This document shows positions 41,376 to 59,207 of a DNA stretch of 64,000 nucleotides, piece by piece. The first letter of the stretch is position 1. Each line of letters opens with the position of its first letter. A model generated the notes under the pieces. It searched no databases. It was not told the origin of the DNA and worked only from the letters and a program-made list of their open reading frames with translations. A program made the translations under genes and the position numbers. The stretch comes from Aquiluna sp. (lineage in GTDB: Bacteria > Actinomycetota > Actinomycetes > Actinomycetales > Microbacteriaceae): NCBI GenBank assembly GCA_021741585.1, contig JAIOXN010000001.1, forward strand, positions 797,059 to 861,058, written 5' to 3'.

Positions 41376-42719
41376 CTAGCTTGGCATATTTACGAAGCGA
41401 GAGTATTGCCCGTGGAAGGCAACGGTTACTGTGCCGGTTGGACCGTTTCGCTGCTTAGCAAGGATTAGATCTGCTTCTCCAGCCTTCGGGTGGTCTCTTT
41501 CGTAGATTCCCTCGCGGTGTAGCAGGACGACAACGTCGGCGTCCTGCTCCAAGGAACCTGATTCTCTAAGGTGAGAGAGTTCTGGCTTCTTGTCCTTAGC
41601 CTGTTCGGCCTGACGGTTGAGCTGGCTTAGGGCCACCACTGGAATCTGGAGCTCCTTAGCCAAAAGCTTTAGTGCTCTAGAGAATTCGGAAACCTCTTGC
41701 TGACGAGATTCCACCTTTTTGCCGCTGGACATCAGCTGGATATAGTCAATGACCACCATTTTTAGATCAACCTGCTGCGCCAATCTGCGGCACTTTGCAC
41801 GAATCTCAACTAGTGACATGTTTGGGCTGTCATCAATAAACAAAGGTGCGTCGTTGATGCGACCGCGAACCGCTGCCAATCTGGTCCAGTCACCTTCGGT
41901 GACATTTCCCTTACGCATTGACTGCAGGTAAATCGAAGACTCTGCGCTGAGCATGCGCATCGCGATTTCTGCTCGGCCCATTTCCAGGGAGAAGAAGATG
42001 GTTGCCTTGTTGTACTTCACAGCTGCATTGCGGGCCATGTCCAGTGCAAAGGTGGACTTTCCAACCGCAGGTCTTGCCGCAACGATAATTAGCTGACCCG
42101 GGTGTAACCCATGGGTGAGAGCGTCTAGATCTGTGAAACCAGTTGGAATTCCGGTTAGCTCACCTCCACGCTTTTGGGCGGTTTCAATCTCCTGGATCGC
42201 GGCTTCAATCGAATCGCTAAGCCCGATGTAATCCTCTTTGGAAGACATGCTGGAAACTTTGTAGACCTCGGCTTGGGCTTGGTTCACCAAGTCTTCGACC
42301 TCGCCCTGGCTTTCGTAGCCAGACTGGGCGATTCGGGTTCCGGCATCAATCAGCCTGCGAAGGATTGCTTTATCGGAGACGATCTTGGCGTAATAGCTGG
42401 CATTTGCTGCTGTTGGAACATAACTGGTAAGTGAGTGCAGGTAATCGGCACCGCCTGCTTTAAGCAGGTTTCCGCTCTTGTTTAGCTCGTCGCTAACCGC
42501 GATGACGTCGGTTGGTTCACCCTTGCCAAAAAGGCTCAGAATGGCATTGAAGATTAGTTCGTGCTTAGGGGCATAGAAATCCACGCCGGAAACGGCTTCG
42601 AATACTTCTGCAACTGCCTCTTGACTCAGGAGCATGCCACCCAGGGTGGATTGCTCGGCTTCGAGGTTGTGCGGGGCGACTCTTGGGTCACTTGCTGGAA
42701 CCGGTGACAGCATGGTCAT
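41376..42719 (-). CDS. dnaB: replicative DNA helicase
   Basis: A 447-residue hexameric 5'-3' helicase. The N-terminal primase-interaction domain (about 10-130; PHNLEAEQSTLGGMLLS) is followed by a RecA-like motor with Walker A ARPAVGKST near 208-216, the SLEMGRAEIAMRML region, the DYIQLM Walker B near 316, and the C-terminal LAKQRNGPTGTVTVAFHGQYSRF. I place the start at ATG 42719, five bases after GGAGG; the longer frame is not family-like. No intein is present, unlike some mycobacterial DnaB. A dense DnaA-box array lies immediately upstream. Confidence 0.96.
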   Translation of the reverse strand: MTMLSPVPASDPRVAPHNLEAEQSTLGGMLLSQEAVAEVFEAVSGVDFYAPKHELIFNAILSLFGKGEPTDVIAVSDELNKSGNLLKAGGADYLHSLTSYVPTAANASYYAKIVSDKAILRRLIDAGTRIAQSGYESQGEVEDLVNQAQAEVYKVSSMSSKEDYIGLSDSIEAAIQEIETAQKRGGELTGIPTGFTDLDALTHGLHPGQLIIVAARPAVGKSTFALDMARNAAVKYNKATIFFSLEMGRAEIAMRMLSAESSIYLQSMRKGNVTEGDWTRLAAVRGRINDAPLFIDDSPNMSLVEIRAKCRRLAQQVDLKMVVIDYIQLMSSGKKVESRQQEVSEFSRALKLLAKELQIPVVALSQLNRQAEQAKDKKPELSHLRESGSLEQDADVVVLLHREGIYERDHPKAGEADLILAKQRNGPTGTVTVAFHGQYSRFVNMPS

Positions 42720-43026
42720 ATATGCCTCCATTCTCTCTAAGCCATGTATAGCTTGGGCCACTGACTGTTTACTTTCAACATTGGCTGTGGATAACTGTGG
42801 ATAACTCTGTGGAAACACGCCGAAAGATTGTGTGTAACCCTGTGGAGAATCTGTGGATAACTGTGGATAACTTTAGGAATTCCCTTTATTTGTAAGGGTT
42901 TTCTCTGTGGATAAAGTTTAATAGAAAACCCTAAACCTAAACCTAAAGGTTGTGGATAACTTGGTGGATAACCGCACAAAAAAGAAACGGCCTGCAGCTT
43001 GCAGGCCGTTTCCATTTACGCTTTGT
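42720..43026. promoter_or_regulatory. DnaA-box array between rplI and dnaB
   Basis: 307 bases without a gene. Six exact TGTGGATAA nonamers, all plus strand: 42786, 42796, 42852, 42862, 42906 and 42951. Three degenerate copies are at 42808 (TGTGGAAAC), 42841 (TGTGGAGAA) and 42963 (GGTGGATAA). Two tandem pairs have a strict 10-base period. GGGTTTTCT (42896-42904) and AGAAAACCC (42923-42931) form a perfect 9-base inverted repeat around the 42906 box, followed by three CCTAAA units (42930-42947). The minus strand has TATACA (42750-42745) as a possible dnaB -10. An apparent ORF across this region (42737-43015, minus) is only translated box repeats. Confidence 0.85.
42978..43012 (-). terminator. 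rplI transcription terminator
   Basis: Perfect 13-base stem (GAAACGGCCTGCA, 42984-42996, with its complement at 43000-43012) and a 3-base loop. On the minus strand it is followed by six T (42983-42978). It lies 15 bases past the rplI stop and ends the rpsF-ssb-rpsR-rplI transcript before the DnaA-box array. Confidence 0.93.
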
Positions 43027-57191: not shown

Positions 57192-57490
57192 AGTAAATCT
57201 CCCTGAATATTCTGGGCTAATGGCCCAAGGCAACCTCAATACTTTAGGCCATCTGGTTCAAATCAGTCAAGAACCAGTTTCATAATTTTATCCCCTCTCA
57301 TGTTTCTAAAGAAAATCCAGTAACGACACGCCGTTAGGATTTGATATCTATTGCCGATATGAGTTGAATGTTCCAATCGAAATACTTGGGGATGTTTCCA
57401 CAGGTTTTCCACAATTTCTAAAAAGTTTTCCACAAGCATTCTTGGCTGTGTAAAACTCTGTGGATAACTTCGATTAATGAGGAGGTGAAT
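57192..57490. promoter_or_regulatory. rpmH/dnaA divergent regulatory region
   Basis: 299 bases. Minus strand: rpmH promoter TTGACT/TAAAGT (57270-57241). Plus strand: TTGGCT (57442-57447), 17 bases, TAACTT (57465-57470) as a dnaA promoter. A perfect DnaA box TGTGGATAA (57459-57467) overlaps its -10, and two near boxes TTTTCCACA lie at 57405 and 57426. DnaA autoregulation is therefore likely. An ORF on the minus strand here is not coding. Confidence 0.75.
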
Positions 57491-58882: not shown

Positions 58883-59207
58883 TTTTTAATTTCTTGTGGA
58901 TAACTTCTGCTCAAACTGTGGATAACTATCCAAAATATGTTCAATAATCACTAAAAACTCTGAATTATTTGATTTTTACTAACAGGTTGATTAGTTATCC
59001 ACAGAGTTATCCACAGAGCTGTGAACAACTTACATCGATGTAGTTCCCAAATAACAAAAGGAGAGCTGAGGTTTATCCACAGTTTCCACAGTGGTTATTG
59101 TTGTAATTACTGATATTTAAATTATGGGGATTTATAGTGATCGAACCCTAAGTGAAGCTTTGTCTCTGGGTTGTGACAAGATAAAACTCCAAATCAAGGA
59201 AGAAACT
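58883..59207. other. oriC: dnaA-dnaN intergenic region
   Basis: 325 bases without a gene. Five exact DnaA nonamers: TGTGGATAA at 58895 and 58917, and TTATCCACA at 58995, 59007 and 59073. A weaker TTTCCACA lies at 59083. Boxes flank an AT-rich block (58926-58990), and another AT-rich block (59097-59140) may be the unwinding element. Position between dnaA and dnaN is that of the actinobacterial origin. A dnaN promoter may lie near 59095-59125. A short upstream reading frame of dnaN (from 59124) is not counted as coding. Confidence 0.9.

Follow-up and report, generated by a model that had tools for sequence, protein, structure and literature searches.

In the 64,000-nucleotide stretch of Aquiluna sp. 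DNA analysed here (the window), the gap between rplI and dnaB holds a row of DnaA boxes that, judging from the comparison of related genomes, is likely to be an upstream cis-regulatory region of dnaB, DnaA-dependent and probably activating, with titration of DnaA as a side effect. Such a site would probably let the initiator help control the amount of the helicase. The boxes are present and conserved in relatives, they stand in register to a promoter element of dnaB, and the genome encodes homologues of PafB and PafC.

The two flanking genes both lie on the minus strand, separated by a gap of about 300 bp, and were identified, like dnaA and dnaN, with NCBIfam models (Table 1). The start of dnaB, backed by aligned relatives, is the ATG at 42719 or a second ATG at 42713. 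Ten DnaA-type sites occupy positions 42786-42971, all on the dnaB sense strand (-). Six are exact copies of TTATCCACA, which read as TGTGGATAA on the plus strand, two have one mismatch and two have two mismatches. An earlier, sequence-only reading of this stretch had likewise counted six exact boxes, together with three near-matches, which by the present count are four (42808, 42829, 42841, and 42963). The two tandem exact pairs with 10-bp spacing that it described (42786/42796 and 42852/42862) are present, and the array is bounded, as it stated, by the terminator-like hairpin after rplI and by the dnaB start. Exact boxes number 12 in the window, compared with a mean of 0.38 and a maximum of 2 in 100 shuffled sequences. 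The complete set in this genome (1.386 Mb in three contigs) is 34 exact boxes, and the six upstream of dnaB are the densest cluster among them. Three further exact boxes lie within about 7 kb of one another elsewhere in the genome (C1:940410-947573), two of them 346 bp apart.

Table 1 Positions in the window of the DnaA-type sites, the promoter elements, the flanking genes, and the presumed oriC
Feature	Position	Strand	Remarks
dnaB, replicative helicase	41376..42719	-	TIGR00665, 534 bits (cut-off 385)
Putative -10 TATACA of the dnaB promoter	42745..42750	-	within invariant AAGCTATACA
CAGTCAGTG, PafBC-like (TGTCRG-N10-TA) element	42759..42767	-	TGTC in most relatives, AGTC in the window
DnaA box TTATCCACA, exact	42786..42794	-	44 bp from -10
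DnaA box TTATCCACA, exact	42796..42804	-	54 bp from -10
DnaA-like box GTTTCCACA, 2 mismatches	42808..42816	-	66 bp from -10; adjoins CGGCGTG kept in Aquiluna
DnaA-like box TTACACACA, 2 mismatches	42829..42837	-	87 bp from -10
DnaA-like box TTCTCCACA, 1 mismatch	42841..42849	-	99 bp from -10
DnaA box TTATCCACA, exact	42852..42860	-	110 bp from -10
DnaA box TTATCCACA, exact	42862..42870	-	120 bp from -10
DnaA box TTATCCACA, exact	42906..42914	-	164 bp from -10
DnaA box TTATCCACA, exact	42951..42959	-	209 bp from -10
DnaA-like box TTATCCACC, 1 mismatch	42963..42971	-	221 bp from -10
Intrinsic-terminator-like hairpin after rplI	42983..43013	-	14-pair stem, then T run
rplI, ribosomal protein L9	43027..43479	-	TIGR00158, 120 bits (cut-off 58.6)
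dnaA-dnaN gap, presumed oriC	58883..59123	.	5 exact boxes on both strands; flanked by dnaA and dnaN

A DnaB scan of species genomes yielded 69 loci. Judged by DnaB, the genome is closest to Aquiluna and other Microbacteriaceae metagenome-assembled genomes, with 86-90% identity, and we refer to this Aquiluna/Rhodoluna-like group as Luna-type. The exact sequence TTRTCCACA is found upstream of dnaB in all 64 Aquiluna/Rhodoluna-type loci. Each of the 11 Aquiluna-type loci has exact boxes in the rplI-dnaB gap (49 boxes, all sense), compared with a mean of 0.10 after shuffling and a single box in the remaining 115,861 bp of those loci. The other 53 Luna-type loci also all have them, with 191 exact boxes (134 sense and 57 antisense) versus a shuffled mean of 0.52 and five boxes in the other 530,594 bp. 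In many Rhodoluna-type loci (among L014-L062, L064, and L067-L071) antisense boxes spaced about 11 bp apart occupy the rplI end of the gap, facing the sense array from approximately 237-261 bp upstream of the -10; exact antisense boxes number zero in the 11 Aquiluna-type loci. Among five further loci (Microbacterium, Frigoribacterium, Enemella, Canibacter, and a Propionibacteriaceae metagenome-assembled genome), four have an exact box, and Canibacter has several one-mismatch boxes but no exact one upstream of dnaB.

Genomes of the genus were searched for a box 20-50 bp upstream of AAGCTATACA, with the count defined by these two elements and the neighbouring gene left aside. The pattern is present in 20 of 22 genomes and its reversed form in 0 of 22, and it occurs in all 13 genomes with completeness of 90% or more and contamination of 5% or less. 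Every match listed has the box exactly 31 or 41 bp from AAGCTATACA. The sequence-only reading had named absence of the array from close relatives as the outcome that would speak against it; boxes are carried both by these 20 genus genomes and by the whole Aquiluna-type set. When the Aquiluna gaps are aligned, they have in common the boxes, CGGCGTGTTT, and AAGCTATACA. The second of these, at 42813-42822 in the window, lies beside a degenerate box and is common to the window and the 11 Aquiluna-type loci; CGGCGTGT is present in 49 of 64 Luna loci, and the CGGCGTGTTT region is a possible site for another factor. Short TTTAGG repeats separate two boxes at 42915-42950, of which only the stretch near CTTTAG(A/G)GTTTTC looks (partly) kept in Aquiluna; TTTAGGGT occurs in 30 of 64 Luna loci.

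Beyond the Luna group, an exact box is found in 17 of 31 loci from the class Actinomycetes and in 2 of 22 loci outside the class, and high-GC class members have degenerate boxes upstream of dnaB. With boxes defined more loosely and at least three sense-strand boxes required, 35 of 36 class loci are positive. The reversed sequences yield 3 of 36 by the same criterion and the outside-class loci 2 of 22; the latter comparison is uneven because outside gaps are shorter (median 170 bp, versus 450 bp in the class). Among outside-class gaps of at least 250 bp, two of eight have three or more loose boxes. The density of loose boxes in the class is 10.7 per kb on the sense strand and 3.1 on the antisense strand, whereas outside the class it is 3.0 on each, without strand bias. 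Counted on both strands, the 36 class loci hold 215 loose boxes, and their reversed sequences hold 55. The class sample derives from 58 genomes with a dnaB match, including the one under study, of which 30 others plus one genome from the phylum draw were read and 27 were left out, many of these with dnaB split into two matches. The outside-class sample is the best 22 of the phylum draw, which had matches in 126 such genomes. Within the loci examined, a dense, strand-biased row of predicted boxes is a feature of the class, and scattered boxes occur outside it too.

The promoter element emerged from the comparison of relatives; a sigma-70 consensus scan of the window locus returned no promoter. 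AAGCTATACA does not vary across the alignment of the window with the 11 Aquiluna-type loci and lies about 25 bp before the dnaB start. A TTGAAA/TATACA promoter pair was considered and dropped, since its 22-bp spacer is too wide. Rfam gave four matches only for an RNA element in the gap, each far under its gathering score, and none was retained. The arrangement of conserved bases resembles the PafBC motif of Mycobacterium tuberculosis, TGTCGG-N10-TA-N3-T with the variants TGTCAG and TGTCAC (PMC8151990). The window has AGTCAG-N10-TATACA where the strict form is TGTCRG-N10-TANNNT, and so departs at two positions, with AGTC for TGTC and a -10 that ends in A, not T. Of the 61 anchored Luna loci, 58 have TGTC at the corresponding offset, and the terminal T of the -10 is missing in nearly all Luna-group members listed. 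A promoter motif score of at least 14, set after viewing the sequences, is reached by 82 of 123 loci versus 4 of 123 reversed sequences (Aquiluna 9/12, Luna 40/53, class 26/36, outside class 7/22). The genome also has adjacent pafB and pafC homologues that match the structure 6sj9 (PafB and PafC) with E values of 5.5e-20 and 8.4e-23. The likeness to RecA-NDp/PafBC promoters thus consists of the TGTCRG-N10-TA spacing upstream of dnaB in most relatives together with the presence of PafBC homologues, and the difference lies in the strict motif, from which both the window and, at the final T of the -10, nearly all listed members of the Luna group depart. For this reason the putative dnaB promoter element resembles the RecA-independent DNA-damage type and is called PafBC-like here, not a strict member.

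In M. tuberculosis, dnaB is induced by mitomycin C, partly via PafBC, and it is also induced when RecA is absent and PafBC reduced; for the remainder, the authors point to a putative SOS box (PMC8151990). LexA boxes near dnaB are not claimed in our set, where there are 9 matches versus 11 in reversed sequences. LexA-box-like palindromes can be seen upstream of dnaB in seven class loci (L078, L079, L122, L128, L134, L142, and L144), with the overall count below that of the reversed control.

The spacing of the boxes relative to the promoter element was analysed in 61 of the 65 Luna loci (the window's included) that could be anchored on it; L027, L031, L056, and L057 were dropped because they have no anchor. 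The main sense slots, allowing at most one mismatch, fall at 44/45, 54/56, 88/89, 99/100, 110/111, 120-122, 164-167, and 209-212, and antisense boxes cluster near 238, 248, and 259 from the promoter element. With the 51 distinct layouts each entered once, 218 of 237 sense boxes lie no more than 1.6 bp from a lattice of 11.1 bp (R = 0.87), where the chance fraction is 0.29 and the lattice was fitted to the data with its phase set after viewing the sequences. The distance from promoter to start, by comparison, is spread over 25-89 bp in the Luna loci (R = 0.30, with the start estimated by alignment to the window's dnaB). Of 20,000 random placements, 1 matches the phase of the eight slot centres; the number rises to 374 when tandem groups are kept whole, which is the fairer figure for register between groups; the related genomes are not independent, because box positions are inherited.

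A separate analysis of the 36 class loci, with duplicate layouts removed, gave a similar period, in that adjacent sense boxes fall on multiples of 11.1 bp (88 distances, R = 0.82). Without the core rule the class spacing has R = 0.80, compared with at most 0.65 for scrambled motifs, 8 of 150 of which gave at least 15 distances. The margin narrows at a looser threshold (6 of 9), R being 0.51 versus 0.47 for the best scrambled motif, and reversed sequences at 11.1 bp gave R values of 0.36, 0.14, and 0.25. Boxes at oriC are also spaced by about 11 bp, more loosely (R = 0.58 in the class and 0.51 in the genus), so the phasing reflects general DnaA geometry and is no proof of transcriptional control. 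The fixed register combined with a variable promoter-to-start distance nonetheless suggests that a DnaA complex may dock on the dnaB promoter instead of forming a plain sink, since selection on a protein-promoter contact predicts a register that is kept while the leader drifts and a plain sink needs none. No paper on helical phasing of DnaA boxes at a promoter was found in the open-licence literature searched.

Binding of DnaA upstream of dnaB is already known from mycobacteria. In vitro, five regions are highly enriched with M. tuberculosis DnaA, among them Rv0057, upstream of dnaB, and chromatin immunoprecipitation in M. smegmatis places DnaA at homologues of those five regions (PMC7738170); the authors draw a comparison with Caulobacter. 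The suggestion of the sequence-only reading that actinobacteria have no described equivalent is contradicted by this work. The likeness is in the gene and in the presence of DnaA boxes upstream of it (PMC7738170). The Aquiluna array differs in that six of its ten sites in a row are exact and lie directly in the rplI-dnaB gap, whereas the mycobacterial site is at Rv0057; the part of the mycobacterial account consulted describes no phase lattice. New here are the extent of the array, the phase lattice, and the PafBC-like promoter, no description of which was found in the open-licence literature searched.

The sequence-only reading had offered three roles for the site: titration of DnaA, regulation of dnaB, and an auxiliary origin. 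The fixed register and the mycobacterial data make regulation of dnaB the best supported of these. A DnaA sink near oriC would bind free DnaA after its early duplication and delay re-initiation, with the neighbourhood of dnaB incidental. It would account for such a dense cluster of exact boxes outside oriC and for its location 16,402 bp from dnaN, measured from the dnaB start side (in agreement with the earlier estimate of about 16 kb). In 25 other class genomes the distance is 31-96 kb and in a further one 23 kb, with genomes omitted where the genes are on different contigs or across the record end. The box load is also near that of oriC, with 215 loose boxes in the 36 dnaB loci (about 450 bp each) versus 197 in 27 class oriC loci of up to 1000 bp each (52 in reversed sequences; two loci that were too short were left out). 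Clusters proximal to oriC in Bacillus subtilis and Streptomyces coelicolor, which resemble the array in having DnaA boxes outside but near oriC, are cited as repressing untimely initiation (PMC4585315, PMC10950094). The Escherichia coli datA locus is likewise a DnaA-box cluster outside oriC, but it is more than 450 kb away from oriC, where it promotes DnaA-ATP hydrolysis (PMC4451416), and it works with IHF, whereas the Aquiluna array is 16 kb away and at a promoter. A sink, however, needs no fixed register, yet the sense boxes keep their 11.1-bp lattice to the promoter while the leader drifts, and we regard this role on its own as unlikely. The presence of dnaB beside every counted array is no independent test, because the loci were fetched by dnaB.

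DnaA acts as a repressor at some promoters elsewhere, and dense boxes adjoining the dnaB promoter could block it, in a negative loop that limits the helicase between initiations. Such a loop is improbable here, since the nearest exact box is 35 bp from the -10 and does not overlap it, and since in M. tuberculosis a mutant DnaA with reduced binding to the dnaB promoter goes with lowered dnaB expression (PMC7738170), which favours activation. Less probable still is a second or auxiliary origin, in which DnaA would open the DNA at the array and load the helicase there. The array has the same boxes as oriC and, as the sequence-only reading had pointed out, more exact ones than the dnaA-dnaN gap (six versus five); near 839 kb, at the array, the cumulative GC skew dips to a local minimum that looked suggestive within the window; and the distal boxes are reversed in many Rhodoluna-type relatives, while oriC too has boxes on both strands. 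However, this skew minimum is shallow and one of several, and over the 400 kb examined the curve is lowest at 923 kb. The AT-rich stretch is inside the array and by eye poorly kept, whereas unwinding elements sit beside a box cluster and never amid it, according to the part of a review consulted (PMC4285127). These features of the skew and of the AT-rich stretch make a second origin unlikely, and the usual dnaA-dnaN region exists, with exact boxes at 58895, 58917, 58995, 59007, and 59073. Upstream of dnaA there is another at 57459; the surrounding segment (57405-57467) has this one exact box and two copies of TTTTCCACA, an arrangement that would be consistent with autoregulation of dnaA.

We therefore return to regulation of dnaB as the preferred reading. 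DnaA would bind the boxes as a helically phased row on one strand, in slots about 11 bp apart, the first two lying roughly 44 and 54 bp upstream of the -10, and would load along one helical face of the array, presumably cooperatively because neighbouring boxes are one turn apart. The centre of the nearest box is about 42 bp upstream of the centre of the -10 and clear of it, as expected for an activator. Bound DnaA may then touch or remodel the dnaB promoter and act on RNA polymerase, most likely as an activator; the amount of helicase would then follow that of active initiator. Since the core promoter is PafBC-like, DNA damage is probably an input to the same dnaB promoter. In addition, the array would soak up some DnaA; because it is copied soon after initiation (16.4 kb from dnaN), titration may plausibly accompany regulation. 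For Aquiluna we thus infer that DnaA binds the array, that it activates dnaB, and that DnaA and PafBC meet at one promoter.

A more tentative proposal, which we consider possible but doubtful, extends this to the whole class. A phase-locked DnaA filament platform, nearly as box-rich as oriC and docked in a constant helical register on a PafBC-type damage promoter, might form a single conserved module that drives dnaB, such that initiator titre and DNA damage jointly set helicase supply. Stalled forks might free DnaA, which together with PafBC could raise DnaB for restart. If true, a module of this kind could also explain the induction of M. tuberculosis dnaB with RecA absent and PafBC reduced.

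If the array works as proposed, a single promoter would link helicase supply in this group to the initiator. Feedback of this kind from initiator to helicase can be tested directly on a DnaA row that stands in register to the promoter element of dnaB, and the PafBC-like core would connect it to the damage response. The small Luna-type genomes, with their clean consensus boxes, would be a convenient system in which to study it.
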